This document shows, piece by piece, positions 300 to 30,512 of a stretch of 43,061 bases of DNA; positions within the stretch are counted from its first letter, which is position 1; the number at the start of each line of letters is the position of its first letter. This stretch comes from Candidatus Enterenecus avicola (GTDB taxonomy: Bacteria > Bacillota > Clostridia > Oscillospirales > Oscillospiraceae): assembly GCA_018715985.1 (NCBI GenBank), contig DVKO01000142.1, positions 1-43,061 on the forward strand. The letters run 5' to 3'. The notes below the pieces were generated by a model, which worked only from the letters and a program-made list of their open reading frames with translations, searched no databases and was not told the DNA's origin. Made by a program: the position numbers and the translations under genes.

Positions 300-342
300 A
301 TTAACATATGTTAATGCCGAAATAGGAGAATGGTGGTATAAT
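300..342 (+). promoter_or_regulatory. 16-bp palindrome plus extended -10 promoter for the downstream cluster
   Basis: ATTAACATATGTTAAT (300-315) is a perfect palindrome; extended -10 TGGTATAAT with TATAAT at 337-342; the first gene starts at 440. Confidence 0.6.
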
Positions 343-439
343 GTGGTGAACTTTAACAAAAGAGCGCGTAAAAGAACGAAGCATAGCTCAGGGAAGAGAT
401 CACAGGCAAATTCATTGGAACAGGAGAGGAGAGAGTGAA

Positions 440-652
440 ATGCTGTTGTTGGGCGCAATTTTTCTCGTTCTGGGGGCGATTTGTGCCGGGTATGGGTATA
501 TGCTGAACAATGATCTGGAGGCCCAGTTTACCAGTTTGATGCAGCACGGAACCACCAATCCCGGTACGATTTTTATTTTCATTGGAATCGGTGTGGCAGT
601 CGTAGGTCTGCTGATTTGCGTGTATGCCATTACCCGCAAAGGCAGGCGGTGA
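440..652 (+). CDS. small membrane protein, two predicted TM helices
   Basis: 70-aa ORF with two hydrophobic segments and a basic C-terminus (TRKGRR); purine-rich RBS gagaggagagag upstream; follows the 337-342 promoter. Confidence 0.65.
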   Translation: MLLLGAIFLVLGAICAGYGYMLNNDLEAQFTSLMQHGTTNPGTIFIFIGIGVAVVGLLICVYAITRKGRR

Positions 653-816
653 AACAGATGCGGGCAGATCCTCAGTAAGTGGGGTGTTTTGCCCGCATTT
701 TGCATAAAAGGACCCGTGAATGAGCGGAAATGAGAACGAGTGAGCCACAGATGAGAGAGATACAATGACCGGTGTGGTGCAAGAGGGAAACAACCACACC
801 CAGGGAGGATGGAAAG

Positions 817-3417
817 ATGAGAAAGATCCGTACATGGTTGGCGGGACTTCTGATCGCCTGCTGTGTCCTGAATGCTTTGGTACAGTTGGGCGTGCCTGCG
901 TCCGCTGCGTCCAAGCAGCAGACGCCTCAGCGGGCGATTGCCGTGGTGTTCGACAATTCGGGCTCTATGTACATGGGAGATTCCAGCCAGAGCAAGGCGT
1001 GGTGTCGAGCCACCTACGGCATGGAAGTGTTTGCGGCCATGATGAATCCGGGAGATGTGTTGGAAATCTATCCCATGTCTCCGGTGGAGGTGGAGGGCAA
1101 ATCCTACACCCAGGACAATCCTCTAGTCATCAGCGATGAAAAAGAGGTGTCCAAGATCCGGGAAATTTACACGCCCAGCGCGGGAGCCACCCCCATCGAG
1201 ACCGTCTCGGCGGCCTATGAGGGGTTGAGCAAGTACAAGGGGAAAGAGCAGTGGCTGATCGTGCTCACCGACGGCGCCATCTTCTATGAGAACGGTTCGG
1301 TAATCGGGGGAAACAATCAGAGCCAGTCCGCCATGGTTCAGAGCACAAAAACGGCCCTGTCCCAGCTGCTGACCCAGTACAACAACCAGGTCAATGTGCT
1401 CTATCTGGGCATCGGTCAGTCGGCCATTGACATCGGCGTCAACGGCAGCAAGCAGCATGGCTCCGCGGTTTCCAAGGACACCGCAGATGTGCTGAAAAAC
1501 CTGACGGCCATGTGCAACCAGATTTTCGGCCGGGATGCGCTGCCCAATGCAGGAAAGTCCATCAGCCTGGACCTCTCCATGAACAAGCTGATCGTCTTTG
1601 TCCAGGGCAAAAACGTCAGCGACATCTCCCTGCAAAATAAGGACGGAGACTCGGGGACGGTGTCGGGCAGCTATTCAGCCCGCTACGGAGAGCGGGGGGC
1701 GGGCAACTACCAGCCCAGCGTCATCGACAAAGACCTGCAAGGGATGATCGTGACCTACGAGGATTGTCCAGCAGGGGACTATGAGCTGAAGTTCAAGGGC
1801 TCCCAGAGCAACATCAGCGTATACTATGAGCCCAATGTGGATCTGGCAGCAGTTCTGGTGGATGAGGCGGGCAACCCAGTCACCGGCACCTGCACGGCCG
1901 GTACCTATTACATCCAGTACGGCCTGGTGGACGAGGATGGGAACTTTACCACCTCTCCGCTGCTGGGCAGCACGGACTATACCATCACCTACACCCTCAA
2001 CGGGGAGGAGCACGCCACAGAGAGCGCCAAGGCCGGGAAGGTAAAAGTGGACCTGGAGGCCGGGGACACACTGGATGTGGAGGCGGAGGCCTACTACCTG
2101 AGTGGGTACTACATCCAGCGCAGCGGGTCAGATCTGGGCTGGCCCTCCGGGGGCTACCAGGTGGCGGCCAGACCGGCAGGGGAACTGACCCTCCAGGTGG
2201 CCGGGGGAGAGGACAGCTACCTGCTCTCCCAGCTGGAGAGCCAGGCGGTATACGACCTGAAGCTGAACTATGAGGACGCCCCGTTGACCGGGGAGGCCCT
2301 GGATGCCGTCCAGATCAATGTGGACATGGGAGACGGCAATCTGGAACATGAGGTGGAGCAGACCCAGGACGGGCTGCAGCTGAAGCTGAAGTACAGCCAG
2401 ACGCCCCAGGACACCCAGTGCGGGGACTACACCATGCACCTCACCGCCACCTATACCACACCGGATGGCCCCCAGGCGGTCAGCCAGGTGACAGACATCC
2501 CCTTCACCCTGGAGGATGACCGCCTCCACCTGGAGGCGGAACTGGAAATCCCACAGAAGTACTACCAGCTGTCCAAAATTGACCGGGGCGAGCCCATGAT
2601 CCTCCATGTGACCAACCGGGGCCAGCCGCTGACGGATGAGCAGCTGGAGACGGTGAGGGTGGAGTGTCAGGCCGAGGGCTTGACCCTGAACTGCACCCCC
2701 ATGCCGGGCCAGTCGGCCTTCTCGGTGGAGCTGGCGGATCAGGAGGGCTATACGTCCGGCAAGTATGAAGTCACCGCCCGGGCCACAGCTGAGGACTACT
2801 TCGGACAGACCACCCAGGCGGAGGACGGCGGACGCATCGAACTGGGGCGGTTCCCCTGGTGGCTGCGCTGGGTGGTGCTGGCGCTGATCCTGTTGGCCAT
2901 CGCCGTATTGATCTGGCTGATCCTCAACCAAAAGATCCTGCCCCGGCAGATCTCGGTGCGCAGCGGAAGCACTCTCTTCAATGTGGACGGCAGCCGGGTG
3001 GCGGGCAATGCCAAGAGTGAGTTTACCGGGAAAAACCGACGAAATGGAGCGCTGACGGTGTCGGTGCCCAAATGCAGCGCCGATCCCCTGGTCAAGGGCG
3101 GTTTCAACCTGGAGCTGGTGGCGGTGAGCCCCAGAAAGGTGAAGTCTGCGGCCAGACGGGCGGGAATCGTCCGGGTCAACCCCATCAATGGCACCACCAT
3201 CCATACCATCCAGGTGGGCACCAGCACCTATAAGAAGGATGCCCAGGGGAAATTTACCAAGGTGGGGGCCAGGCCCAAGCCCGCTGCAGCCACCAAGGGC
3301 GGCAAGCAGCAAAACCTGGTTCAGTTTGAAGTGGGCAACAACGCCAACTGTGTCATTGCAGGGGAGACCGTGGCGGGCGCGTCCTTCTCCTGCACCTGCA
3401 AGTTGCAGTTCCATTGA
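817..3417 (+). CDS. VWA domain protein with signal peptide and C-terminal TM helix
   Basis: Start MRKIRTWLAGLLIACC...ASAAS signal peptide; MIDAS motif VVFDNSGSM; VLTDGA; TM WWLRWVVLALILLAIAVLIWLIL followed by a basic cytosolic tail. ORF track start (772) moved to the ATG after a GGAGG-type RBS. Confidence 0.85.
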   Translation: MRKIRTWLAGLLIACCVLNALVQLGVPASAASKQQTPQRAIAVVFDNSGSMYMGDSSQSKAWCRATYGMEVFAAMMNPGDVLEIYPMSPVEVEGKSYTQDNPLVISDEKEVSKIREIYTPSAGATPIETVSAAYEGLSKYKGKEQWLIVLTDGAIFYENGSVIGGNNQSQSAMVQSTKTALSQLLTQYNNQVNVLYLGIGQSAIDIGVNGSKQHGSAVSKDTADVLKNLTAMCNQIFGRDALPNAGKSISLDLSMNKLIVFVQGKNVSDISLQNKDGDSGTVSGSYSARYGERGAGNYQPSVIDKDLQGMIVTYEDCPAGDYELKFKGSQSNISVYYEPNVDLAAVLVDEAGNPVTGTCTAGTYYIQYGLVDEDGNFTTSPLLGSTDYTITYTLNGEEHATESAKAGKVKVDLEAGDTLDVEAEAYYLSGYYIQRSGSDLGWPSGGYQVAARPAGELTLQVAGGEDSYLLSQLESQAVYDLKLNYEDAPLTGEALDAVQINVDMGDGNLEHEVEQTQDGLQLKLKYSQTPQDTQCGDYTMHLTATYTTPDGPQAVSQVTDIPFTLEDDRLHLEAELEIPQKYYQLSKIDRGEPMILHVTNRGQPLTDEQLETVRVECQAEGLTLNCTPMPGQSAFSVELADQEGYTSGKYEVTARATAEDYFGQTTQAEDGGRIELGRFPWWLRWVVLALILLAIAVLIWLILNQKILPRQISVRSGSTLFNVDGSRVAGNAKSEFTGKNRRNGALTVSVPKCSADPLVKGGFNLELVAVSPRKVKSAARRAGIVRVNPINGTTIHTIQVGTSTYKKDAQGKFTKVGARPKPAAATKGGKQQNLVQFEVGNNANCVIAGETVAGASFSCTCKLQFH

Positions 3418-3456
3418 TAATCAACCATTCTGACAGTGAAAAATGGAGGGATCGAG

Positions 3457-6400
3457 ATGAGCAGAGAAATCATCAAAGACAATGTGGTGGATGCCCCTAC
3501 TCTGTTTGTAGGCGTAGGCGGAACCGGAAGCGACATCGTCAAAATGGTGGCCGAAATGTGCCGGCCGGGAGAGGTGGAAAACATCAGCTTTGTGTGCCTG
3601 GACACCAACGTGAATGATCTGTCCGGGGTGGCCAAGAGCAAGGCCACCATCAAGGCGGTGCAGACCTCCAACACCCAGACGGTGGGCAACTACCTGGATT
3701 ATGACCAGGACGCGCTGCAAAACTGGTTTCCCAAAAATGCGGTGCTCTACGACAAGACCGTGTCCGAGGGCGCCGGACAGGTGCGTGCCATCTCCCGTCT
3801 GGCCCTGAACAGCACGGTAAAGACGGGGAAAATCCGCCCCCTGTATGATGCCATCGACGAGCTGTTCCGCAAGACCGGAAAGGCCATGAAGCAGGCCATG
3901 CGCTGCGTCATCGCCTCCACCGCCTCGGGCGGCACCGGCTCCGGCATCATGCTGCCCCTGGCCATGCTGATCCGGGACTACGTAAAGAACAAGTACCCCA
4001 ACACCAGCCTGATTGTGCGGGCTCTGGTGATGCTGCCCGAGACGCTGGACAGCGTCATTGACTCCTCGGTGGAGCGAGACAGCCAGAGAAGAAATGCCTA
4101 TGCCACCATCAAGGAGATCAACGCCTTTATGATGAAGGGCTCCGGCTTCTTTGACATCGACGAGGACCTGAAGCGGTACAGCAACCTGCACATTGACTTC
4201 ACCAACCCCGGCACCGATGAGCTCAGATCTCTGTCCCTGCTGCCCTTTGACTTCTGCTTCCTGCTGGACGGGCAAAACGCGGAGGACAGCACCCTGGTGA
4301 GCTTGCACCAGTACAAGCTGCAGGCGGCCCAGTCCCTGTATGAGCAGAACATCGGCCCCATGCAGAAAAAGGCGTTTTCCGTGGAGGACAACATCATCAA
4401 GGAGATGTCTAACCCCGGCAACTTCGGGCGCAACCGGTTCGGCGGCATCGGCGCGGGTGTGCTGCGCTACCCGTACGAGGACATTGCAGACTATGTGGCC
4501 TACGACTGGGCCATCTCCAGCATCGGCGGGGAGGGCCAGGCAGCCAAGTGGACCCGGTACGACAATGCCTTCGAGATCAAGCGCCGGGAGGCCCGCAAGA
4601 AGGGGCTGTCCGATACGGAGATCCCCAAACGCAGCGAGGTGTACGTCAGCGAGCTGAAGGCCGGCACCGACCCCTTCTCCAAGGATTTGCAGAATAAGTT
4701 CCTGCGGGACGCCCAGAAGCGGGTGAGCAAGTATTTTGAGGCTTTGGCCAACCAGATGCACGAGTGCCTGAACAGTGACACCGCCATCCGCGGGGCCAAG
4801 GATATGGCCAACCACCTCTCGGAGGAGATTGACTACGAGCACGACCCCTCCATGCAGGGCAAGGCCCGGGAGAACCTGGAGCTGTTGCGGGACTATGAGA
4901 CGGTCATCAAGAAGAATGCCCAGAAGGTGGCGGAGAGCAATGCAGAGGCCCTGCTCATCAATGAGGCCAAGACCATCAACGAGAATAAGCCCTACTGCCT
5001 GGAGTCGGTACTGAAAAACGCCTTCGGAGACATCTGCCATCCCAATGCCGCCCGGTATATGCTCTACCTGGTGAAGATGGAGATGGATAAGCGGGTCAAC
5101 AGTGTGACCTCTGAGATCAACGATGTCATCACCACCAACCTGGAAAACTACTCCCCCGACGCCAACGACACGGGCTCCTTTGATGCCGGGTATACTCGTA
5201 AGAAGAAGGAGAAGAACCTGGATGAGCTGTGCGCCGCTGAGAAGGGCGCAGGGCAGGACCCCTCCATCCTGGACAAGCTGGGCGGATACAAGGGCATCTA
5301 TGCCAAGCTCAACGCCTGTTTCACAGACTACTATGCCAACATCACTGCCCTGGGAGATCGGACTGCCGAATTGGCCGCCTACAAGCTGGGTGCGGACTAT
5401 TTGAAGGATCTGTGCGAGAAGTACGAGGAGTTCTACGAGACCTTCCCGGAGAAGGTGACGGCGCTGGTCCGCAAGCAGGAGGAGATCGTGGACTCCCTGA
5501 AATTCGTCAAGGGCGACTCGGTGATGAACATCTGTGCCACCAAGGAGCTGCTGGAGGAGATCAGCCGCTCCAGCAGCAACACCAGCGAGGAAGGCTCCAT
5601 GATGGACAGCCAGCTCAACGGCAGGATTTTCGACGCGGTCAAGGCCAACGTGCGCTTTGCCCGGGAGATCCGCAGTGCGGACATTGTGGAGGATGACCGG
5701 CGCATTGACATCTTCGACAGCATTCTGCTGGGCTACTTCAAGGAGGATGTGCGCCAGAACTGCGACAGCATCGACCTGAACATTGTGGAGGCCATTGCCA
5801 AGGAGAACCGCCTCAAGGCCCGCATCAAGCTGCGGGAGCAGCAGGACGGCTCGGGGGACACCCAGGTGTTTGACAACGTCACCCACGAGGACAATCTGCG
5901 CTACATCCGAGAGATCATCGCCATGGGCGAGCGGCTGTCTGCCCCCGGCATCCAGCGCATCACCAACGAGGAGGCCAGAGAGGTCAAGCTGTGCGCCTAT
6001 AACAAGAAGCTGCTGGATATGCGGGCCTACCGCATTCAGGATCTGGTACACAAGGGGGACGCTGTGGACACCATCTCCAAGTACGAGATCCATTTCTTCA
6101 ACGCCCTCTACAACCTGACCCCCAACAAGCTGAAGAAGTTTGCCGCCCCCTACTCCACAGAGACGGGCAGCAAGGACGCGGGGCTGTACCACACCGCCTA
6201 CTTCAATTACTCCCGCCACATCGGGCCGGACTCCACCAAGAACATGATGATCTCCACCCACATCGACAAGCGGTGGGACTCTGTGGCGGTCATGCCTGAG
6301 ATCGACTTTGCCTTCCAGGATCACCGGATGATGCGCATCCATCAGGCCATGATTTACGGCCTGGTGCACGGGGCCATCCAGCGGCACGATCTCTCCCTGG

Positions 6401-7014
6401 CCGCACCGGGCAAGCGGGTGTACAAGTATGAGAATTCCGATGAGCGGTTTGTGGATCTGGTGGTGTCCAACGGCACCCTGTGCGATGAGTTCTACGAGAT
6501 TCTGGATGCGCTGTACATCAGCTCTGCCATTGTGGAGGATGTCCACTTCATCAAGCAAAAGAAGCGCACCCGGGACGAGGTGAGAAACTCCAACTATCGG
6601 GACACCAATTTCGCCAAGGATCTGGATGAATTCTCCATTGAGGTGCTCCACAAGGGCAAGACCAGCCTGTTTGAGATCCCCCTGGCCTACTACAACTCCC
6701 TGCCCAACAGCCAGCGGTTCACCGGTGAGATCTCTGCCCTGGTGGATGCGGTCATTAAGACCTTCCGGGACGAGCTGGAGCACTGGGAGCGGGGCAACGA
6801 CGCCAAGTTCATTCTCTGCCAGGTGCTGACCGAGCAGTTCAAGCTGCTGATGAACAACTACCGGGACTATGCCACGCTGAGAAATAACATTGAGGCCAAG
6901 GACAATCCCGTTATCAACATGGCATACCGCAAGATCAAAAAACTGCTCCTGGAGGCGCCGGAGCCCGACGACTACGAGCAGACGCTGATGGACATGAAAG
7001 CGATGATCTTCTAA
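3457..7014 (+). CDS. Tubulin_2-like (tubulin/FtsZ superfamily) GTPase
   Basis: N-terminal LFVGVGGTGSDIVKMV, GAGQVRAISRLAL and STASGGTGSGI (tubulin signature-like GGTGSG); RBS GGAGG before the ATG at 3457. Confidence 0.8.
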   Translation: MSREIIKDNVVDAPTLFVGVGGTGSDIVKMVAEMCRPGEVENISFVCLDTNVNDLSGVAKSKATIKAVQTSNTQTVGNYLDYDQDALQNWFPKNAVLYDKTVSEGAGQVRAISRLALNSTVKTGKIRPLYDAIDELFRKTGKAMKQAMRCVIASTASGGTGSGIMLPLAMLIRDYVKNKYPNTSLIVRALVMLPETLDSVIDSSVERDSQRRNAYATIKEINAFMMKGSGFFDIDEDLKRYSNLHIDFTNPGTDELRSLSLLPFDFCFLLDGQNAEDSTLVSLHQYKLQAAQSLYEQNIGPMQKKAFSVEDNIIKEMSNPGNFGRNRFGGIGAGVLRYPYEDIADYVAYDWAISSIGGEGQAAKWTRYDNAFEIKRREARKKGLSDTEIPKRSEVYVSELKAGTDPFSKDLQNKFLRDAQKRVSKYFEALANQMHECLNSDTAIRGAKDMANHLSEEIDYEHDPSMQGKARENLELLRDYETVIKKNAQKVAESNAEALLINEAKTINENKPYCLESVLKNAFGDICHPNAARYMLYLVKMEMDKRVNSVTSEINDVITTNLENYSPDANDTGSFDAGYTRKKKEKNLDELCAAEKGAGQDPSILDKLGGYKGIYAKLNACFTDYYANITALGDRTAELAAYKLGADYLKDLCEKYEEFYETFPEKVTALVRKQEEIVDSLKFVKGDSVMNICATKELLEEISRSSSNTSEEGSMMDSQLNGRIFDAVKANVRFAREIRSADIVEDDRRIDIFDSILLGYFKEDVRQNCDSIDLNIVEAIAKENRLKARIKLREQQDGSGDTQVFDNVTHEDNLRYIREIIAMGERLSAPGIQRITNEEAREVKLCAYNKKLLDMRAYRIQDLVHKGDAVDTISKYEIHFFNALYNLTPNKLKKFAAPYSTETGSKDAGLYHTAYFNYSRHIGPDSTKNMMISTHIDKRWDSVAVMPEIDFAFQDHRMMRIHQAMIYGLVHGAIQRHDLSLAAPGKRVYKYENSDERFVDLVVSNGTLCDEFYEILDALYISSAIVEDVHFIKQKKRTRDEVRNSNYRDTNFAKDLDEFSIEVLHKGKTSLFEIPLAYYNSLPNSQRFTGEISALVDAVIKTFRDELEHWERGNDAKFILCQVLTEQFKLLMNNYRDYATLRNNIEAKDNPVINMAYRKIKKLLLEAPEPDDYEQTLMDMKAMIF

Positions 7015-7140
7015 GGCAACACGGCACCATTGGGTTTGGAAGGCTTTGCGGATTTGGGTACACATTCTGAAAATCCATGCTGGATTGCCCCAAAATGATA
7101 CCATCTTCAAAGCCAACTTGACGAATCATGCGGTGCTGCC
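7015..7140. repeat. MITE-like intergenic element with imperfect terminal inverted repeats
   Basis: GGCAACACGGCACCATTG (7015-7032) versus reverse complement of 7123-7140 (GGCAGCACCGCATGATTC), 13/18 identical; internal hairpin AATCCA-tgc-TGGATT (7072-7086). Confidence 0.4.
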
Positions 7141-7159
7141 AAATCTGCCGACTTTACCT

Positions 7160-7188
7160 CCCTCCGGCCGGGTGTGCCGGCCGGAGGG
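7160..7188. repeat. GC-rich hairpin in the intra-operon gap
   Basis: CCCTCCGGCCGG (7160-7171) / CCGGCCGGAGGG (7177-7188), 12-bp perfect stem, 5-nt loop, no T tract. Confidence 0.7.
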
Positions 7189-7248
7189 GCAAACAAATAG
7201 ACTGCCGTGGGTTGCACGATCTCACAGCAGTGATGGAGGTGAGTTGAG

Positions 7249-9210
7249 ATGTTTACGGTGGTCATTGCGGAACAAGAGCATATCAGCGCCATTGAGGAGT
7301 TCCATATGTTTTTGCAGCCCTTTTTGGCATCCACACAGGTGGCCTTTTGCCAGTGGATTCCAGACGGCGCTGCGCTGGACGACATGGTGCCCCAGCTGCG
7401 CAAGACGGTGAATCGCCGGGAAGAATGGCGTGCCATCGTGGTGTGTGATGAGGGGGGGCTCAAGCAGCAGAATCCCTTCAACCGGGTGGTGTATACCCCG
7501 CCCCAGCATCAGCCGGGCCAGAGCCAGGAAGAGTATCTGGACACAGTCTGGCAGCGCAAGCGGGAGGCCTTTGACCTGGCAGCCCAGCAGCCGCTGACCA
7601 GGTTGATGAGCTATCTCTGCCAAGGCCCTCTCATCAGCGTGGAGAAGGGGCAGACCTATCAGGACCCGGAGTTTGCCCTGTACCAGAAGGAGGCGGAGTA
7701 CAAGCAGGAACTGCGCAGGGCCATCACCGCAGGGTGCGAGCTGGAGATTTCTGCACCCGCGCAGGTGCTGTGTCTGGCCAAACGGACCTATGTGGATGAG
7801 GAGCGTGCCCTACGCACCCTGTGGACCTCCCACGTGGATCACCAGTACTCCCGGTTTTATGACTGGAATCTCTACTTTGACAAAATGCGCTACCTGGTCT
7901 TTGACATTCTGCCAAAGAACCATGAAAACTACACGTTTGACTACATCCGGTTTCTCTACGGATTGCTGCTGCTGGCCAACCATGAGGTGCCCCAGAGCAG
8001 TTTGCAGCCCCGGCGGCTCTACATCCTCAACAGCGAGGACGACGAGCAGCGGCTGCGGGAGCTGTTTGGCCGCTACGAGGGAAAACTGGCGGCCACGGAC
8101 GAGATGCTTACCCAGAAGATCCGTCAGCTGGAGAACCGAACGAGACGCCGCCTGTCCGACCAGGAGGCGGAGGCCATCTTCTGCGCCCACGTCACCGTTC
8201 CGGTGACCATGATCCGGGAGTTTGAGGAGACGGACCTCTACGTGGATCACCGGGGTCTGGGCCTGGCCACGGACTGTCCCACCAGTGAGCTGTCCGTGTG
8301 GAGCACCGGGCATGACCGGTCCCGGAAGGCCCTGCACCGGTTTATGAAGCAACCCCGCCGGGCGGTCAAACGGGCGGCGGATGATGTGCGCAACCTCAAC
8401 CACGTGGATCTGGACCGTGTGGGGGAGCTCAACCGGTTTCAGCTGGAGGACGTGGCGGAGTACATTCAGACCGAGGAACTCAGCATGGTCACCACCCCCA
8501 CCCGGAGTTTGACGGACATTTCCGACTACGAGGTGCAGCTGGACGAGGCTGCCCAAGAGGTGGAGAAAAAAATTGACGCCAGAATGACCAGAAAGACCAC
8601 CATTGCCCTGGGTGCTCTGGCCCTTGGGCTGTTTTTGGTGGGATTCCTGCCCTCAATCCTAAAAAATTCGGGCGAGACGTCCGAGACCATGGGGGCAATT
8701 TGGCTCACCGTGGGGGCGTTGGGACTGCTGGCTGTCATCGGATTGGTGGGCCTGTACGTGCTGCGCAGAGCGCTGAAGCGAAAGTTCAGCCAGTACAACG
8801 CAGCCATGCAGGGACTGGTGGAGGAAGTGACCTCTGTCACCCGCCTGTTCTCCAAGTATCTCAGCCACGGGTGTAATGTCATGCGTGGCTATCAGGTGCT
8901 CAACAAATTCCAGTCCCATGAGGACCCGGAAGTTGGGCAAATCAAGGTATTGAAAAAGCACCGGATGGACATTCTTCGGTGCCGGGAGGAGCTGCATGAG
9001 GTGTTTGGGAAATTCCTGACCCAGACCCCTGTGGAACCTCAGACACCGTATCAGTATGATTTTCACAGGCCGGTGGACTATCCGTACCCCCTTCCCCATG
9101 AGGAGAACCGGGACGCCCAAATCGAGTTTGTGCAGCCTGGCCATGTGATTTCCGTGCCGGTGGACTTTGTGCGGCGGGTCACCATCAGAATGGAGGAGCT
9201 GTATGATTGA
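7249..9210 (+). CDS. uncharacterised protein of the tubulin-like cluster, two TM helices
   Basis: 653-aa ORF; hydrophobic segments TTIALGALALGLFLVGFLPSIL and IWLTVGALGLLAVIGLVGLYVL; stop overlaps the next start. Confidence 0.75.
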   Translation: MFTVVIAEQEHISAIEEFHMFLQPFLASTQVAFCQWIPDGAALDDMVPQLRKTVNRREEWRAIVVCDEGGLKQQNPFNRVVYTPPQHQPGQSQEEYLDTVWQRKREAFDLAAQQPLTRLMSYLCQGPLISVEKGQTYQDPEFALYQKEAEYKQELRRAITAGCELEISAPAQVLCLAKRTYVDEERALRTLWTSHVDHQYSRFYDWNLYFDKMRYLVFDILPKNHENYTFDYIRFLYGLLLLANHEVPQSSLQPRRLYILNSEDDEQRLRELFGRYEGKLAATDEMLTQKIRQLENRTRRRLSDQEAEAIFCAHVTVPVTMIREFEETDLYVDHRGLGLATDCPTSELSVWSTGHDRSRKALHRFMKQPRRAVKRAADDVRNLNHVDLDRVGELNRFQLEDVAEYIQTEELSMVTTPTRSLTDISDYEVQLDEAAQEVEKKIDARMTRKTTIALGALALGLFLVGFLPSILKNSGETSETMGAIWLTVGALGLLAVIGLVGLYVLRRALKRKFSQYNAAMQGLVEEVTSVTRLFSKYLSHGCNVMRGYQVLNKFQSHEDPEVGQIKVLKKHRMDILRCREELHEVFGKFLTQTPVEPQTPYQYDFHRPVDYPYPLPHEENRDAQIEFVQPGHVISVPVDFVRRVTIRMEELYD

Positions 9211-12200
9211 TTGGATCAAATTTCTGCTGGTGATGTGCGCGGTGGCCCTTCCGTTCCTGCTCTTTGTGCTCCTCAACGCCAAGGCCAACCTTCCCAAGAA
9301 AATCCGGAATCGACAGCTGCTCATGCCCATTGTGGCCCTGGTGTACGGCATTGCGGCGGTGTTTCTGCTGTCCTACATCAACCAGTGGATCGCCTGGATC
9401 CTCAGCCTGGTGCCGGGCTGGCTGGACCGCGTCCAGAGCTGGAGCGAAGAGGCCCTCAACGGCAACCTGAGCTTTTTGGGTGAGGCTGCAGCTTGGTTGG
9501 CGGAGGGGATTCGTACCCTGCTGGCCTCCAGCCAGCTCATGTTCTGGCTGTGCATTGCGGCCAACGCAGTGATTATGTTGGTGTTTGTCCTTATAAAGAA
9601 ACTGCTGTTGGCCATTTTCAAACGGGTGTTTGGCAAATCCACGGCTCTGGGAGATACGCTCAGCGGCCTGTTTTACGCCAGAGAGGAGGAGGGCTCAGAG
9701 GTATGGTATGTCCGGCCTCACCTGGGCCAGGCACGGACCTATTTGAAATTCTTCTACTATGGAGCGGTGGGCGTGTCCATTCTGGCCATGCTGGTATCTG
9801 GAGTACTGTACCGCAACCAGCTGCTGGGCGTTCCCTTTTACCCAGTGTTCGCCATTCTCATCCTGGGTGAGATGTACTTCTTTGTGGACGGACTGCTCAA
9901 AGGAGAAGAGGAAGAGGACCAGGTGGAGGGGGAGGACGACGAGGCCAAAAACGTGGTCAACTACTCTCTGCTGCGCAAGGCGCTGCGCAAGCTCTTCGGG
10001 GATAAGCTCCAGGCCGAGGGGACGGACGCCACCCATATGGAGGCGGACCTTCAGACCAACGAGGAGCTGCTCCATGCATGGCAGGCCGGTTCGGATGGGA
10101 TTGCCGAGGCGTACAGCCTGTTCATGCAGGGACAGGTGGCCCGGGGCGGGACGCTGGACCGCAATTATCTGGTGTCCGGTCTGGAACTGCTGCAAGGCAA
10201 GAGCATTCTGTTCAACAACCCCTTCTACTATGACCTGATTCCCTATGTGTCCTATTCCATGAACCGCACCCTGCTGCGCAACCGAAAGGTGCTGGTGGTG
10301 CTGGGCCGGCATGGCATTCAGGACGATTTGCAGCAGTGGTGTGAGGACGGCCTCACAGCGGTCACCAACGTGGAGCAGATGTGGCGGGTGGGGGTGCTCA
10401 CCCGCACCGCCCAGGAGCTGGACGTGGGCATTGTGACCCGCTCCAGTGTCCACGACTTGAAACTCCACGAGGCCAATGAGGATTTCTTCTCTCAGGTGGA
10501 ATTTGTCGTGCTGGTGGAGCCGTCCCGCCTGGTCACCACTGCCCAAATCGGCCTCAACTCTTTGGTGCAGGCGTGCAGACGGGAAGGGAAAAATATCACC
10601 TTCTGCTCGGTGGACAAAAACTGTGACGGCCTGGTGGATGCCCTCTCTCACATCCTGATGACCAGCCTCAGCGAGGTGGCGGCCACCAACCGCTACGACG
10701 GCGTGTGCTCCTATATGTGCTGGGAGACGGACCGGGAGCACTTGCAGCACCGGATGCTGCCCAACGTATCCCGGTATCTGGGTGTGGGCACCGAGCTGTC
10801 CTTTGCCGGACTGAAGCATCAGGTGGCCCACACGGCCTGGTACGGCGGAGAGGCATTTCCGGTGACGGATATGCACTGGATTGTCAAGCAGTATTACTAC
10901 GATCTGCTCCACTACGCCGGGCTGCCCATCTCACAAAAGAGCATCGACGACTATTTCCAGACTTCCCCCAACCTCTGGAATGCCAGAATCCAAAAAAATC
11001 AATACATCACGGTGGAGGATGAGTCCTGCAATATGTTCGAGATCAAGCGGGACTTTTCCACCCGCGCCACCGAGCAGAGCTTCATCAACATCATCTCTCC
11101 CGAGTACCTGCTCAAGGACTACATGGCGGACAACGGCAGCATCTTCAACACCGATCCCAAGGCCATCCCCTATGTGGTGGCCGACTATGCCAGAACGGTG
11201 CGGAATGTGGTGCTGCGGCTGTGCCTGCGGATGAGCGCCGGCATGGTGCCCGAGGAGGAGGTGCGCCAGGAGCTGATGCTGGTGGAGCAGGCACAGGGCA
11301 AGGTGGAGGACACCTTCTGGGATCTGGTGTGCAGCATCAACCGCCCCATTTCCAGCGGCCAAGACGACACCCAAGATCGGATCCTGCGGCGGGAGGCCTA
11401 TGGCAAGACCCTGGAGTTTGGGCCTGACGTCATCTGCGTGAAGAAAAAGTTCTCCATGAAAACCGGGAAGATGGAGCGGTACTTCCACATTGCCGACCCG
11501 GACTTCAAACAGATCCTGTTGTGGGATCTGCAAAGCGCCAGCTACATCGCCGAGGATGAGCACGGAGAGCGGCAGTATCTGGGCACCGAGCTTCGGGGCC
11601 AGATCTTCCAAAAGTATCTGCCCGGACAGTTCTTCACCTTCCATGGCAAGTATTATGAGATGCAGTCGGTGACCACTGACGGCCGGATTTTGCTCCGGCG
11701 CGCTGCCGACCACATCACCGGCAGACGCTCCTACCGCCAGCAGCGCAGCTATGTCATCACCCGCTGTGTCGATGCCCAGGGCATGGGTGACCAGCGGGAG
11801 GTCAACGGGATGCGGGTGATCCGCCAGTATGCGGATTTGCAGGTGGACACGCCGGCGTATTGGGAGATGGACCGGTACAACGATTTCGTCCATGGCCGAA
11901 AGGTGCTGGTCAACGGCATTCCCCGGCGCACCTACTACAACAAGCGCATCCTGCGTGTGGATCTGCCCCAGCCTGTGGATGGGGCGGTGTGTCAGACCAT
12001 TGCGCTGTTGTTTGATGAGATCTTCCGCACCATGTTTGCGGAAAACCACCCCTATATCGCCGTGACCGTTGCCTCTGAGACGGAACTTCCGTTCACGTAC
12101 CGCGTGGCCGGGCAGGACGGGGTGGAGCTGAACCCCAACAGCCTCTACTTCATTGAGGACAGCCAGATGGATCTGGGGCTGCTGGAGGCGGTGGAGCGAA

Positions 12201-13597
12201 ACCTGACCCGTGTGCTGGAAATCATCTGGGATTACCTGGACTGGCATATGGAGCAGGTGGAACAGAGCCTCAATCCGCCCCAGGAGCCGGAAGTGCCGGA
12301 CTACACCTTGCCGGAGCCCCCGGAGGGGACGGCGGCGGAGCCTGAGCCCAAGACCTGGATCGGACGTCTGTGGAAGAAAATCAAGAGCTTCTTCCGGCGC
12401 ATCGGGGAGTTCTTCCAAAAGCTGTTCCGGAGGAAAAAGAAAACTGAGGAGCCGGAGGAGCCTACCGGACAGGAGCCGGAGGAGCCCACCGGACAGGAGT
12501 CGGAGGAGCCCACCGGACAGGAGTCGGAGGAGCCCGCCGGACAGGAGCCGGAGGAGCCCGCCGGACAGGAGTCGGAGGAGCCCGCCGGACAGGAGCCGGA
12601 AGAGCCTGCTGACCAGCAGCCAAAGGATGCGCCGCTCCAGAGCAGAAGTATGTACTCCAGCGCCATGGACGAGAGCCAGCCCAACGACGCCAACGACACG
12701 TTGGAGTATGAGCCGGAAAAGGTGTTGAAACCCACGGAAATCAAGACCATGGAGCGCAAGCCCTACCATGAGCGGTACTATCTGCTGTACGGTGGCACTC
12801 AGGTGCCGGAGCAGCTGGACGTGCAGGGAACCTGGGACTACCTGAAGGAGCACGGCTATGCAGACGGCTCCCTGAAGCAGGCCAGAAGCGGGAAAGAGAT
12901 TGCGGAGATGATCGAGAACAACTACGATCCCCGCAAGCCTGGCAGCCATTTCTGCGATTTCTGCGGGGTGGAGCTGATGGGCACCGACTACCAGGTGCTG
13001 TCGGATGGCCGGGAGCGCTGCACCACCTGCGGTAAGACCTCGGTGAAAACGGCCCAGGAGTTTGACCAGCTCTACCGCACCATTGCCCGGAACATGGAAG
13101 CGTTCTTCGGGGCCCGGATCATGAAGCCGGTGCGGGTGCAGATGGTCAACTCCAAGAAGCTGCACAAGAAGCTGGGCAAGACCTTTGTACCCACCGGGAA
13201 ATTCGATGGCAGGATCCTAGGCGTGGCCATTCGGGACGGAGATGGGTATTCCATCCTGGTGGAGAATGGAGCGCCCCGGCTGAGTTCCATCATGACCATT
13301 GCCCACGAGCTGACCCATATCTGGCAGTACCTCCATTGGGACGACAAGGAGATCGTGCGCAAGTACGGGAAGGATATGGAACTGGAGGTCTATGAGGGAA
13401 TGGCCAAATGGGTGGAGATCCAGTATGCCTATCTGATTGGAGAGCCGGCCGCCGCCAAGCGGGAGGAGATTAGCGCCCGCCTGCGGGAGGATGAATATGG
13501 TCGGGGATTCCGAAAGTACGTGGCCAGATACCCCCTGTCCATGGGCACACAGCTGGAGCATTCCACCCCCTTTGAGGACCGTTCCAAGCCCCTGTAA
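9203..13597 (+). CDS. large multidomain membrane protein: N-terminal TM helices, uncharacterised (possibly degenerate helicase-like) core, E/P-rich repeat, Zn-ribbon, HExxH metallopeptidase-like C-terminus
   Basis: ATG at 9203 overlaps the upstream stop; several N-terminal TM segments; CDFCGVEL...CTTCGK; IMTIAHELTHIWQYLHW (HELTH) with a downstream E-rich segment. The helicase-like statement is weak; no clear Walker A motif seen. Confidence 0.75.
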   Translation: MIDWIKFLLVMCAVALPFLLFVLLNAKANLPKKIRNRQLLMPIVALVYGIAAVFLLSYINQWIAWILSLVPGWLDRVQSWSEEALNGNLSFLGEAAAWLAEGIRTLLASSQLMFWLCIAANAVIMLVFVLIKKLLLAIFKRVFGKSTALGDTLSGLFYAREEEGSEVWYVRPHLGQARTYLKFFYYGAVGVSILAMLVSGVLYRNQLLGVPFYPVFAILILGEMYFFVDGLLKGEEEEDQVEGEDDEAKNVVNYSLLRKALRKLFGDKLQAEGTDATHMEADLQTNEELLHAWQAGSDGIAEAYSLFMQGQVARGGTLDRNYLVSGLELLQGKSILFNNPFYYDLIPYVSYSMNRTLLRNRKVLVVLGRHGIQDDLQQWCEDGLTAVTNVEQMWRVGVLTRTAQELDVGIVTRSSVHDLKLHEANEDFFSQVEFVVLVEPSRLVTTAQIGLNSLVQACRREGKNITFCSVDKNCDGLVDALSHILMTSLSEVAATNRYDGVCSYMCWETDREHLQHRMLPNVSRYLGVGTELSFAGLKHQVAHTAWYGGEAFPVTDMHWIVKQYYYDLLHYAGLPISQKSIDDYFQTSPNLWNARIQKNQYITVEDESCNMFEIKRDFSTRATEQSFINIISPEYLLKDYMADNGSIFNTDPKAIPYVVADYARTVRNVVLRLCLRMSAGMVPEEEVRQELMLVEQAQGKVEDTFWDLVCSINRPISSGQDDTQDRILRREAYGKTLEFGPDVICVKKKFSMKTGKMERYFHIADPDFKQILLWDLQSASYIAEDEHGERQYLGTELRGQIFQKYLPGQFFTFHGKYYEMQSVTTDGRILLRRAADHITGRRSYRQQRSYVITRCVDAQGMGDQREVNGMRVIRQYADLQVDTPAYWEMDRYNDFVHGRKVLVNGIPRRTYYNKRILRVDLPQPVDGAVCQTIALLFDEIFRTMFAENHPYIAVTVASETELPFTYRVAGQDGVELNPNSLYFIEDSQMDLGLLEAVERNLTRVLEIIWDYLDWHMEQVEQSLNPPQEPEVPDYTLPEPPEGTAAEPEPKTWIGRLWKKIKSFFRRIGEFFQKLFRRKKKTEEPEEPTGQEPEEPTGQESEEPTGQESEEPAGQEPEEPAGQESEEPAGQEPEEPADQQPKDAPLQSRSMYSSAMDESQPNDANDTLEYEPEKVLKPTEIKTMERKPYHERYYLLYGGTQVPEQLDVQGTWDYLKEHGYADGSLKQARSGKEIAEMIENNYDPRKPGSHFCDFCGVELMGTDYQVLSDGRERCTTCGKTSVKTAQEFDQLYRTIARNMEAFFGARIMKPVRVQMVNSKKLHKKLGKTFVPTGKFDGRILGVAIRDGDGYSILVENGAPRLSSIMTIAHELTHIWQYLHWDDKEIVRKYGKDMELEVYEGMAKWVEIQYAYLIGEPAAAKREEISARLREDEYGRGFRKYVARYPLSMGTQLEHSTPFEDRSKPL
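12455..12598 (+). repeat. in-frame 24-bp tandem repeat, six units plus a degenerate seventh
   Basis: Unit gaggagcccaccggacaggagtcg encoding EEP(T/A)GQE(P/S); the degenerate copy continues to about 12621. Confidence 0.9.
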
Positions 13598-13608
13598 GTA
13601 CAGAGCGA

Positions 13609-13644
13609 AATGTGCCTGACGTCTGGATCGGCGTCAGGCACATT
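13609..13644. repeat. intercistronic hairpin
   Basis: AATGTGCCTGACG (13609-13621) / CGTCAGGCACATT (13632-13644), 13-bp perfect stem, 10-nt loop, no T tract. Confidence 0.8.
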
Positions 13645-13716
13645 GTGCGAAAGGAGAAAGATCAGCCGGACGCAGTGGGAGAGATGGGCGTCCGGACCGA
13701 ATGGGAGGCGTAATGG

Positions 13717-15831
13717 ATGAGAAGACGCTTGAGAGAGTGGATCAGTATGAAGGTGGCAAAACAGCCGGGGACGGTGGTCCTTTTGGCCATTTTGCTGTTC
13801 AATGTGGTGTTCTTTCTGCTGTCTGCGCTGATTGTCAGCAGTTTCTCGGTGACGGGCACCGAAAAAATGGGGTTTCTTGAGGCGGCGTTTTACACCATCA
13901 CCATGATCCTGGATGCCGGGTGCATTCAGTTTGTGCTGGATGAAGTGGGGCAGGTGGGCGTGTCCGTGGTGCTCATCTGCATTGGCATCATCATCGTGGG
14001 GATGATCACCTTTACCGGCGCAGTCATCGGCTATATGGCCAACTACATCTCCAGCTTTGTGGAGAAAGCCAATACAGGGAGCAAAAAGCTGGTGATTTCC
14101 GACCATGTGGTGATCTTGAACTGGAACACCAGGGCCTCAGAGATCGTCAACGACTTGTTGTTCTGTGAGGACAGGCAGAGCGTGGTGGTGTTGGCGTCCA
14201 GTCGAAAAGCGGAGATTGAAAAGGAGATCGAAGAGCGCCTGGCTGACACCATTCACCGGGAGAATGCCTCCCTCAGAGAGCGGTGCAAAGGGTATGGACC
14301 CATTCGGGGCACGCTGCGGTACTACCGGCAGCATATGCGCCAGACAGTGACGGTGGTGGTGCGGGAGGGCGACGTGTTTTCCTCCAAGCAGCTCCATGAC
14401 ATCTCCCTGGAGCACGCCAAGACGGCGATTATTCTGGGCAATGACATCAACAATACGGTGTGCAAGTTCGAGCAGCGAGAGCGGAATGAGCAGTTGTACC
14501 GGGGCAATGCCCAGACCATCAAGACCTTGATGCAGGTGGCGGATATTACCGGGGCGGAGAGCTCGGACGACGATCAGAAAATCATTGTGGAGATCACCGA
14601 CGACTGGACGGCGGAATTGGTGGAAAAGATCATTGCGTGCAAACAGGTGGATGGAAAGTGTAAGATCGTTCCCGTCAACATCAACCACGTGTTGGGACAG
14701 ATCCTCTCCCAGTTCTCCCTGATGCCGGAGTTGAACTTGGCCTATGGGGAGCTGTTTTCCAACCAGGGCATGACCTTTTATGCCCGTCGGCAGGAGATGG
14801 AGGAGGACGACACCTTTATCCGCCGTCACCTGGCCCAGCATCGGCGGTCCATTCCGCTGACCTTTATGATGAATGACCGGAAGAGCTACGCCTTCTATGC
14901 CGCAGGATCGGAAAAGGATATTTTGCGCCGGGATGAGGAAAAACCCTCTTCGTTTGGGGTGAAGCTCAACCACAACTACTGGATTGAGAGAAAAAACGTC
15001 ATCATTCTGGGCCACAACAGCAAGTGCAGAGAGATCATGGGCGGCTTCCAGGCGTTTCGGAGCGAGTGGAATTACAAGGACGGTTCTGGCGAGATCCTCA
15101 ACCTGATGGTCATCGACGATGAGAAGTCCCTGGAGCGCCTGGACTATTACAGGGATTACCCCTTTGTGACCCAGACGGTGGCTGCCAGCATTTACGACAA
15201 AGAGATCATCTGCGATACCATCAAACGGTTCATCGCATCCAACGAGGAGGACACCAGCATATTGATCCTCTCTGACGATGATGCGCTCAACGAGGACATC
15301 GACGCCAACGCCCTGGCCAATCTGGTCTATGTTCAGAACATCATTGAGGAGAAAAAGCTGTCCGATCCCAACTTTGATGTGGAGAGCGTGGACGTGATTG
15401 TGGAGATCATAGATCCCAAACACCACGATGTGGTCAACAGTTACAGCGTCAACAATGTGGTCATCAGCAATCGGTACATCAGCAAGATGATTACCCAGAT
15501 TGGGGAGAAAGAGGCGTTGCAGAGCTTCTATGCGGACATTCTCACCTATGACGCGGAGGGGGCGGAGGTCTACGAGAGTAAGGAGATCTACGCCAAGAAG
15601 GTCAGCCGCTTCTTCGAGGAGATCCCTCCACGATGCACGGCCAGAGAATTGATTCGGGCGGTCTATGAGGCGTCCGCAGATGAACGCCTGCCCGCCAGCC
15701 AGCGCAACCCCGCCATCGTCCTGGGGTATGTCAAGCCGGGAGGAGAGATGGTTCTCTTCCAGGGCGACCAGGAGGAGATATGGGTGGAGCTGACGGAGCG
15801 GGACAAGCTCATCGTGTTCAGCAATCACTGA
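13717..15831 (+). CDS. CASTOR/POLLUX-like ion channel with RCK/TrkA-N-like domains
   Basis: TM pair; pore segment AAFYTITMILDAGCI; following TM VLICIGIIIVGMITFTGAVIGYMANYI; then NWNTRASEIVNDLL..VVVLAS and a second nucleotide-binding-like half (VIILGHNSKCREIMGGF). Confidence 0.75.
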   Translation: MRRRLREWISMKVAKQPGTVVLLAILLFNVVFFLLSALIVSSFSVTGTEKMGFLEAAFYTITMILDAGCIQFVLDEVGQVGVSVVLICIGIIIVGMITFTGAVIGYMANYISSFVEKANTGSKKLVISDHVVILNWNTRASEIVNDLLFCEDRQSVVVLASSRKAEIEKEIEERLADTIHRENASLRERCKGYGPIRGTLRYYRQHMRQTVTVVVREGDVFSSKQLHDISLEHAKTAIILGNDINNTVCKFEQRERNEQLYRGNAQTIKTLMQVADITGAESSDDDQKIIVEITDDWTAELVEKIIACKQVDGKCKIVPVNINHVLGQILSQFSLMPELNLAYGELFSNQGMTFYARRQEMEEDDTFIRRHLAQHRRSIPLTFMMNDRKSYAFYAAGSEKDILRRDEEKPSSFGVKLNHNYWIERKNVIILGHNSKCREIMGGFQAFRSEWNYKDGSGEILNLMVIDDEKSLERLDYYRDYPFVTQTVAASIYDKEIICDTIKRFIASNEEDTSILILSDDDALNEDIDANALANLVYVQNIIEEKKLSDPNFDVESVDVIVEIIDPKHHDVVNSYSVNNVVISNRYISKMITQIGEKEALQSFYADILTYDAEGAEVYESKEIYAKKVSRFFEEIPPRCTARELIRAVYEASADERLPASQRNPAIVLGYVKPGGEMVLFQGDQEEIWVELTERDKLIVFSNH

Positions 15832-15886: not shown

Positions 15887-15926
15887 AACAGCAGCTGTTT
15901 CATGTTGGGGAACAGCTGCTGTTTTT
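15887..15926 (+). terminator. Rho-independent terminator after the channel gene
   Basis: AACAGCAGCTGTT (15887-15899) / AACAGCTGCTGTT (15911-15923) followed by TTTCTCT. Confidence 0.8.
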
Positions 15927-16013
15927 CTCTGCGTTATGAATTATAATGGGAAGTGCAACCAGTGCGCCTTGTTTTCGGGATATAGGGTGAGGGAAGAAAA
16001 AGGAGGAGTGGCC

Positions 16014-16574
16014 ATGGAGGACGAACAAATTGTGGCGCTGTTTTGGCGGCGGGACCAGGAGGCCATTGTCCAGAGCCAGCGGAAATACCACCCCTATCTG
16101 AGCAAAATTGCCTACAACATTCTCCATGACCAGGAGGACAGCCAAGAGGTGGTCAATGACACCTATTTCAAGGCGTGGCAGTCCATACCGCCCCAACGGC
16201 CCAGCAAGCTATCCATCTATCTGGGACGGCTCACCCGCCATGGGGCCATAGACCGATACCGTCACCACACCAGTCAAAAGCGGCAGGGGGACACCTATGC
16301 CATGTGCCTGGAGGAGCTGGAGGAGTGCTGTGCCACCGGGCAGGACCCGCAGCAGGTGCTGGATGGGAAATTGCTGGCTCAGGCCATCAGCCGGTTCCTC
16401 TGCACCCTAAAGCCCCAGACCAGGGCCATGTTTTTGGGCCGCTACTACTTTCTCGATTCCCTCAAAGAGGTGGCGCAGTATTGCGGTGTCCATGAGAGCA
16501 AGGCCAAGAGCACCCTGTTTCGGGTGAGAAAGGCCCTGCGTGCGTATTTGAGACAGGAGGGGTTTGACCTATGA
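16014..16574 (+). CDS. ECF-type RNA polymerase sigma factor
   Basis: Region 2-like LSKIAYNILHDQEDSQEVVNDTYFKAWQSIPP; region 4-like SLKEVAQYCGVHESKAKSTLFRVRKALRAYL; AGGAGG RBS before the ATG at 16014. Confidence 0.85.
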   Translation: MEDEQIVALFWRRDQEAIVQSQRKYHPYLSKIAYNILHDQEDSQEVVNDTYFKAWQSIPPQRPSKLSIYLGRLTRHGAIDRYRHHTSQKRQGDTYAMCLEELEECCATGQDPQQVLDGKLLAQAISRFLCTLKPQTRAMFLGRYYFLDSLKEVAQYCGVHESKAKSTLFRVRKALRAYLRQEGFDL

Positions 16575-17470
16575 GGGGAGAACAGATCTTAGACGCCCTG
16601 GAGCAGGTGGACGAGGAGCTTCTGTATGAGGCCCAGGGGTTCCGCGGCCAAAGGAGGAAAAAGAGCAGGTGGCCTCTTGTTTCCTTGGCGGCCTGCCTGT
16701 GCCTGGTGGTGGCCGGAACCATGGTGGCACAGCTGTGGCGCAGCCCCATGGAGTCCAATGGCTCGGTGGGCAAGGAGAGCCACAATCAGATGGAAACAGA
16801 GCTGGAACATGGAAGCGGAGGGGTGTATGTGCCCCCTCTGGAAGCAAATGAAGGGGGAAATATGGTGACCGAGGCGGATGTGGCCAGCTTTTTCACCTAC
16901 CAGGGCCGCAGCTATGTGGCGTGCAGCCGGATTCCCGACGGCTCCCATTTGGTGGGGAAAAAGCTGGGCACCTCAGACGGACACGTGGACGAATGGACAT
17001 TGGAGAGCGGCTATATGGAGGACAGCGCCAGGGGGGATTTCTATGCCGTCAACGGCTATGATCCCACCCATCTGCTGTGTATGCAGGATGAGGAGGGCAG
17101 CGTCACCCTGTACTGGAACAACAACGACATCACGGTGAAAACCGGCAGCGATGTGTTGGAAACGGTGTTCCACCTGCCCGGTCAAGTGGTTGAAGCTGCC
17201 GTGCAGGGGCAGAGCATGGCGGGAGGGAGAGACATCCCCCACCTGGATCGGCTCCATGCATGGTTGGAGGAGCTGTGTAACACCCCAGCTGTGTCCGCAG
17301 AGGAGGCCAATCTGACGAGTAAGGACGTCTACGGAGACCTGATTTTGAAGAAGGCGGACGGAGTTACCGTACACCTGGTGCTCTACGACGGTGGTTATGT
17401 CCAGATAGAGGGACTGGATCCGGTGTGCTGGCAGCTGGATTGGACACCGGTTGTCCAGGGAAAGGCGTGA
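16571..17470 (+). CDS. single-pass membrane protein, probable anti-sigma factor
   Basis: ATGA overlap with the ECF sigma gene; N-terminal cytosolic segment (LDALEQVDEELLYEAQ) then TM WPLVSLAACLCLVVAGTMVAQLW. Confidence 0.65.
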   Translation: MRGEQILDALEQVDEELLYEAQGFRGQRRKKSRWPLVSLAACLCLVVAGTMVAQLWRSPMESNGSVGKESHNQMETELEHGSGGVYVPPLEANEGGNMVTEADVASFFTYQGRSYVACSRIPDGSHLVGKKLGTSDGHVDEWTLESGYMEDSARGDFYAVNGYDPTHLLCMQDEEGSVTLYWNNNDITVKTGSDVLETVFHLPGQVVEAAVQGQSMAGGRDIPHLDRLHAWLEELCNTPAVSAEEANLTSKDVYGDLILKKADGVTVHLVLYDGGYVQIEGLDPVCWQLDWTPVVQGKA

Positions 17471-17491
17471 CAAGAAAGGGAGGAACGAGAC

Positions 17492-30483: not shown

Positions 30484-30512
30484 AACCATTTGAGAGAAAG
30501 GAACGGATACTT

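Follow-up and report, generated by a model that had tools for sequence, protein, structure and literature searches.

Organisation of the locus

The window, the whole stretch of 43,061 nucleotides of Candidatus Enterenecus avicola DNA that was analysed, contains on the + strand of its contig the six open reading frames (ORFs) of the original prediction, the coordinates of which were confirmed as first given. The features are as follows:

301 to 342, + strand: putative promoter/operator, read from the sequence
440 to 652, + strand: lineage-specific 70-aa microprotein with two transmembrane (TM) segments, from tblastn
817 to 3417 (alternative start 772), + strand: core gene 1, VWA protein, from TM prediction and homologue alignment
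3457 to 7014 (alternative start 3436), + strand: core gene 2, Tubulin_2 (FtsZl1) GTPase of 1185 aa, PF13809
7249 to 9210, + strand: core gene 3, cytosolic protein of 653 aa with a TM hairpin, from TM prediction and an AlphaFold model
9203 to 13597, + strand: core gene 4, 5-TM protein of 1464 aa, overlapping core gene 3 by 8 bp
10103 to 12292, + strand: predicted pseudo-helicase body of core gene 4 (residues ~301-1030), MrfA/DUF1998-type fold, from Foldseek
12953 to 13030, + strand: zinc ribbon CDFC...CTTC of core gene 4, four Cys invariant in 56 homologues and present also in A10
13304 to 13396, + strand: HELTH zinc site and distal Glu E1398 of a gluzincin-like peptidase in core gene 4, invariant in 56 homologues
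13717 to 15831, + strand: accessory CASTOR/POLLUX-like RCK channel of 704 aa, pore motif MILDAGCI at residues 63-70
15887 to 15923, + strand: intrinsic-terminator-like hairpin 3' of the channel gene, 15 pairs and then TTTTT

An extended -10 element, TGGTATAAT, can be read from the sequence at 334-342, 5' of the 70-aa gene, and just 5' of this element lies a perfect 14-bp palindrome, TTAACATATGTTAA (301-314), which is a possible operator. The palindrome was not found upstream of the gene in the locus of the sister species, Pseudoflavonifractor sp. An44. A sigma-70 scan listed no site on the + strand and did not recover the extended -10 at 334-342.

The original prediction placed six co-directional genes in one unit. 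All six ORFs exist on the + strand, but the conserved unit is one of four core genes. The 70-aa microprotein is not a conserved member, its only homologue by tblastn being at the same position in An44 (63%); in Pfam it has a DUF3185-like match below the cut-off. The channel gene had been regarded as a likely member in spite of a hairpin in the gap that precedes it. This gap, of 119 bp, holds an inverted repeat that lacks a T run, whereas a clear terminator-like site follows the channel gene. The latter thus appears to lie inside the unit, although as an accessory and not as part of the core.

Among the six ORFs, only the third gives a Pfam match above the cut-off, to Tubulin_2; the other five give none, the second having a weak match to VWA. 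PADLOC returned no credible match among the operon genes. A Cas7_IIId match that it reported spans only 60 residues (E=0.0088) and looks spurious.

Just beyond the operon the window contains an ECF sigma factor gene (16005-16574), a membrane anti-sigma-like gene (16571-17470) and a serpin gene (17492-18724, + strand; PF00079, 3.4e-84). Further along are the genes of two very large surface-type proteins of 1913 aa (18859-24600, - strand) and 1749 aa (30480-35729, + strand), which contain Listeria-Bacteroides repeats and Ig and CHB_HEX/Fn3_assoc domains; the second of these adjoins a YibE/F gene.

A conserved four-gene core

The conserved core consists of four genes, encoding the VWA sensor, the Tubulin_2 GTPase, a 2-TM protein and a large membrane metallopeptidase. 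Their order and shared strand recur in 76 of the 77 assessable loci, that is, those not cut by an end among 92 non-redundant loci, and their arrangement is therefore not due to chance. The sole departure is L138, where core genes 3 and 4 occur but core genes 1 and 2 do not. The 8-bp overlap of core genes 3 and 4 is retained in most relatives.

Within the order, a Tubulin_2 relative is present in 28 of 394 genomes, and in the genus it is found in 3 of 37, a patchy distribution. The block of VWA, Tubulin_2, 2-TM and large membrane protein genes is constant in 23 of the 27 assessable loci of the order, both partner genes accompanying Tubulin_2 in each, so that the neighbourhood is conserved around Tubulin_2 homologues as had been anticipated. 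A profile scan with core gene 4 detected 179 relatives in named genomes, and the 80 of these that were examined come from Oscillospiraceae, Lachnospiraceae, Peptococcaceae, Solobacterium, Eggerthellales and Treponema. The relatives thus belong mostly to gut Clostridia, but the distribution crosses phyla, with Treponema nested beside a Peptococcaceae member from termites on the core tree. No relatives of core gene 4 were found in the plasmid and phage collections searched. The profiles with which the most divergent loci (L048-L054) were labelled had been built in part from these very sequences, and so the labels of these loci lean also on gene order, size and weak direct matches.

The VWA protein and its divergence between sister species

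The VWA protein has a signal or TM segment at residue 8, a second TM segment at residue 685 and a cytosolic tail of ~145 aa. Its MIDAS is intact, with D46xS48xS50, T125 and D152 invariant in an alignment of 20 VWA homologues. These features agree with the VWA sensor with a TM anchor that had been proposed. Searches of PDB sequences with profiles of the VWA protein, core gene 3 and core gene 4 gave nothing useful.

Comparison with An44 shows a DNA identity of 92-96% over most of the core. The two species are just as similar at ribosomal and tRNA-synthetase loci (92-95%), and recent transfer of the core from one to the other is therefore rejected. In the window genome, the assembly of which is incomplete, rpoB was not found as a marker of divergence. 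Codons 1 to ~400 of the VWA gene are set apart from the rest of the core, with about 65-78% DNA identity, and similarity to An44 ends with core gene 4, other genes sitting in the place of the channel there. Thus the sensor ectodomain and the downstream slot vary while the core is constant. In most segments of the diverged half amino-acid identity exceeds DNA identity, which would fit an old allele under purifying selection; recent positive selection on the VWA domain is unsupported.

The GTPase and core gene 3

The identification of core gene 2 as a member of the tubulin superfamily is borne out by the profile search (PF13809, E=1.7e-53), and the GGTG(S/A)G loop, which corresponds to the GGGTG(S/T)G-type loop of FtsZl1 proteins, is kept in all 21 Tubulin_2 homologues compared. 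No tested function for a Tubulin_2 protein was found in the literature.

Core gene 3 encodes a protein of long helices with two TM segments, starting at residues 452 and 484. Its fold is predicted with confidence (pLDDT 87.7), and no convincing fold relative of the model was found. A likeness to the pore toxins AhlB and SmhB was ruled out, since the TM-scores are below 0.25 and only long helices are shared.

A predicted helicase fold joined to a peptidase

The product of core gene 4 is built from five TM segments, a cytosolic body, an acidic repeat linker, the zinc ribbon and the HELTH site, in that order. An AlphaFold model of residues 301-1464 (pLDDT 81.8, pTM 0.79) was matched by Foldseek to the DUF1998 helicase MrfA (6znp_A; E=1.1e-20, probability 1.00, TM-score 0.52-0.61 of target), with further matches to Hel308, Brr2 and others. 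Walker A, GxxxxGK[S/T], is found in none of 91 copies of the protein and the DEAH motif is absent from the body. Instead, 78 of the 91 copies have hydrophobic-[E/D]P[S/T] at the position of motif II, the motif positions having been assigned from order and strand pattern and not from structural alignment. Profile homology to three DUF1998-type helicases was rejected (hhalign probability 0.3%), and the link to helicases hence rests on predicted structure. The body appears to have a helicase fold from which both motifs of the ATPase have gone and, judged by these motifs, is no ATPase. The original prediction had noticed neither this fold nor that accessories are exchanged and the sensor ectodomain has diverged.

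The linker contains an imperfect in-frame (S/P)EEP(T/A)GQ repeat (window 12545-12743), and this region is the most diverged internal part of core gene 4 between the sister species.

The combination of a zinc ribbon with a gluzincin-like peptidase, already suggested for this protein, withstood comparison: the four Cys, the HExxH and the distal Glu (E1398, residue 1098 of the model) are invariant in 56 homologues. All 36 members match DUF6782 (best 7e-8); for the window protein this match is below the cut-off, as are weak BSP and DA1-like matches, and the similarity to the DA1 family is only weak (E 0.0098 at best). The divergent clade of loci L049-L054 keeps the four-gene order and CxxC..CxxC, but its gene 4 has no HExxH towards the end. 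The peptidase is encoded by an ORF of its own at about a dozen loci, with core gene 4 split into a helicase-like and a peptidase ORF (L101, L105-L109, L111, L116, L124, L139 and L140); it can thus probably act in trans. A transglutaminase-like C-terminus has been added in three of 13 close homologues.

The channel

The CASTOR/POLLUX-like assignment of the channel is upheld by profile matches to CASTOR and DMI1 (hmmsearch: CASTOR, 6o7c, E=1.9e-4; 7vm8, 1.1e-3) and by an acidic filter motif. LDAG is present in 21 of the 27 channel-family (P6) entries listed and the pattern was not found in the other six, several of which are truncated copies. Every copy with the pattern has a pore of the form M[IV]LDAGCI, and TVGYG is absent from the pore motif. 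Plant CASTOR is a Ca2+-gated Ca2+ channel with the filter AD(S/A)GNHA, the Asp of which is required (PMC6697748). The window channel shares with CASTOR, POLLUX and DMI1 the RCK regions, the acidic D-A-G pore motif and the lack of TVGYG (PMC6697748). It differs in being bacterial and in sharing an operon with a tubulin core.

A channel gene is present in 21 of the 92 loci, upstream or downstream of the core and always in a same-strand run with it. On the core tree (P5) its presence requires 16 gain or loss changes, at least 13 of them forced by supported branches, with no clear clustering; some of the absences are uncertain, the flanks being short. It is missing from An44, in which the core is nearly identical. 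The channel is an exchangeable accessory, not part of the core. In L082 a gene (16564-18639, + strand) encoding sigma-70 regions fused to a TM protein lies directly 3' of the channel gene, recalling the sigma/anti-sigma pair that follows the channel gene in the window.

Other accessory genes

RyR-domain proteins with a TrkA_N-like part and 3-4 TM segments are found in the cluster at 22 loci, transglutaminase-like TM proteins at 11 and TIR-LRR TM proteins at five. There are other TIR proteins too, and PrsW is a further accessory at some loci. In a Lachnospiraceae-rich clade, an FtsK/EssC-type ATPase gene lies directly 3' of the core, followed by genes for EspC/WXG100-like small proteins of ~95 aa (L126, L127, L128, L130, L133, L134 and L136; seven of 92 loci), and a link to type VII secretion (T7SS) is possible. 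Many loci have a core with no recognised effector alongside.

Core flanks amounting to 0.74 Mb contain 23 TIR genes against 0.87 expected, about 26-fold, and 17 RyR genes against 0.16 expected, about 100-fold; the background was taken from 24 genomes, and the factors are rough because it was scanned with other profiles than the flanks. Genomes that carry the core commonly have TIR genes. RyR domains bind, and TIRs make, immune signals of the cADPR type (PMC13232231).

Apart from the core, another contig of the window genome has a gene for an RyR-type membrane protein adjoining the gene of a TIR protein of 1135 aa (L141, 4637-9500, - strand), and a trio similar to these genes is found in L142 (3523-10046). 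The L141 genes could be a defence pair of a TIR and an RyR channel.

Relation to known systems

Operons of FtsZl1 (Tubulin_2) and a VWA protein were described by Makarova and Koonin (2010; PMC2875224), who proposed a role in membrane remodelling. Going by the text of that article, the window locus shares with these systems a Tubulin_2 protein of ~1000-1200 aa next to a VWA protein with an intact MIDAS, extra TM proteins of unknown family and a patchy distribution. Divergent P-loop GTPase, Ser/Thr kinase or OmpA-like partners are frequent, though not universal, in the systems that the text describes, whereas none of these domains was found in the window operon or in the accessory proteins scanned. 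Core genes 3 and 4, the latter with its metallopeptidase and pseudo-helicase, and the link to channel, TIR and RyR proteins are absent from the FtsZl1 description in the 2010 text (PMC2875224).

The closest relative of the window locus belongs to Pseudoflavonifractor, the genus to which we take Bacteroides capillosus now to be assigned. As the FtsZl1 of B. capillosus is named by a reviewer in the 2010 article (PMC2875224), a related locus may already be in its supplement.

A tubulin theme also figures among the GAP1-N2 GTPase-centric conflict systems of Kaur et al. (2020; PMC7159879), which likewise have tubulin with an extracellular VWA near the membrane, a core with variable components and a proposed conflict role. 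Their DO-GTPase, GAP1 and FNIII-repeat components are absent from the window operon. Among the loci scanned, GAP1-N2 occurs only in L148, a locus of Paenibacillus type, as read from its gene content, in which core genes 3 and 4 are missing. The present module is therefore a distinct variant within the Tubulin_2 and VWA operons.

Two further comparisons concern single components. The body of core gene 4 shares its fold, in the predicted structure, with the MrfA/DUF1998 SF2 helicases, but unlike them the protein is membrane anchored, fused to a peptidase, without Walker A or DEAH and without detectable sequence homology to the three DUF1998-type helicases compared. With Thoeris and other TIR-cADPR defences there is in common the presence of TIR and RyR-RCK proteins beside the core at some loci; however, no TIR is encoded in the window operon and neither member of the defining Thoeris pair is in the core.

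The original prediction did not recognise the locus as a named system. This stands for the full gene set: a description of the four-gene core with its accessories was not found in the open-access literature searched. It does not stand for the pairing of Tubulin_2 with VWA, known from both 2010 and 2020.

Proposed function

The reading that we favour, tentatively and at a little under an even chance, is that the four proteins form a membrane complex which senses an extracellular ligand and drives exchangeable effectors, with a likely role in conflict. The VWA ectodomain would bind a ligand from a surface or from envelope damage through a divalent metal. Binding would alter the state of the tubulin-like GTPase, or its polymer, under the membrane by way of the TM proteins. 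The pseudo-helicase may serve as a scaffold or as a receptor of the signal, and the peptidase of core gene 4 may cut a partner or an effector. In the window the outcome would be the opening of the CASTOR-like channel, which is probably permeable to Ca2+. Judging from the anatomy of the complex and the company it keeps, the role is most likely in conflict with phage, with competing bacteria or under host attack. In favour of the reading as a whole are the conserved core order and catalytic and metal residues, the pseudo-helicase fold, the swapping of accessories, the enrichment of TIR and RyR genes, the diverged ectodomain and changed downstream slot in the sister species, the patchy distribution across phyla, the part of RyR domains and TIRs in cADPR-type signalling and the Ca2+ gating of CASTOR.

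Several observations do not sit easily with such a complex. PADLOC matched none of the operon genes, no relatives were found in the plasmid and phage collections, and the diverged half of the VWA gene would fit purifying and not positive selection. TIR genes are in any case frequent in such genomes, and their counts for flank and background come from different profiles. In most loci no effector is recognised beside the core, which may thus work by itself or take part in housekeeping control of the envelope, and L049-L054 maintain the gene order with no HExxH at that place.

A more specific proposal, which is rather doubtful, is tubulin-based immune signalling, in which a VWA receptor would act through the GTPase and the helicase-derived protease on CASTOR-type channels, RyR-gated RCK channels and TIR enzymes. 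It is also somewhat unlikely that the locus is a cytoskeletal machine for membrane remodelling of the kind proposed for FtsZl1 in 2010, in which VWA would tether the complex to the wall or a partner, the GTPase would polymerise under the membrane and reshape it, and the peptidase and channel would regulate this, with the effectors being mere neighbours. The FtsZl1 family and its VWA partner are indeed shared, every component is cytosolic or membrane bound, and many cores have no recognised effectors. Against it, the core has none of the partners proposed in 2010 (GTPase, kinase and OmpA), TIR and RyR proteins are strongly enriched among the accessories, the distribution is patchy and the ectodomain has diverged in the sister species.

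Sensing of envelope stress or cell contact tied to secretion, whereby the core would read the cell surface and support T7SS-like export or adhesion, is unlikely. It would account for the FtsK/EssC-type ATPase and EspC/WXG100-like genes directly after the core in the Lachnospiraceae-rich clade, for the ECF sigma and anti-sigma-like genes after the channel in the window and for the sigma-70 fusion in L082, but the secretion genes occur at seven of 92 loci, none is beside the window core, and a terminator-like hairpin separates the channel from the sigma gene. A variable island in which the channel and the remaining accessories are carried along as passengers, unlinked in function to the core, is very unlikely: the channel's absence from An44 and its near-random presence on the core tree would agree with it, but all five strong channel matches in the 394 genomes of the order adjoin a core, with none elsewhere, and all 21 channel genes are in same-strand runs with it, that of L070 overlapping the VWA gene by 4 bp.

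An operon type already known for Tubulin_2 and VWA has here, with core genes 3 and 4, a form not found described. It looks like a machine for sensing and defence, a role in conflict or sensing being our best inference. Tubulin_2 has been known since 2010, and the module offers a tractable, fixed set of partners for testing it, with a VWA protein that resembles a receptor, two obligate partners in the membrane and a protease site open to mutation. The membrane-anchored helicase fold without ATPase predicted for core gene 4 is unusual in itself. If the channel is selective for Ca2+, it would be a bacterial relative of CASTOR coupled to one particular sensing complex. That RyR-RCK and TIR proteins occur together suggests that nucleotide immune signals are linked to ion flux in gut bacteria. 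A tubulin-based immune complex, if true, would represent a new class of system, in which a cytoskeletal GTPase signals across the membrane with a bacterial ion channel as output.
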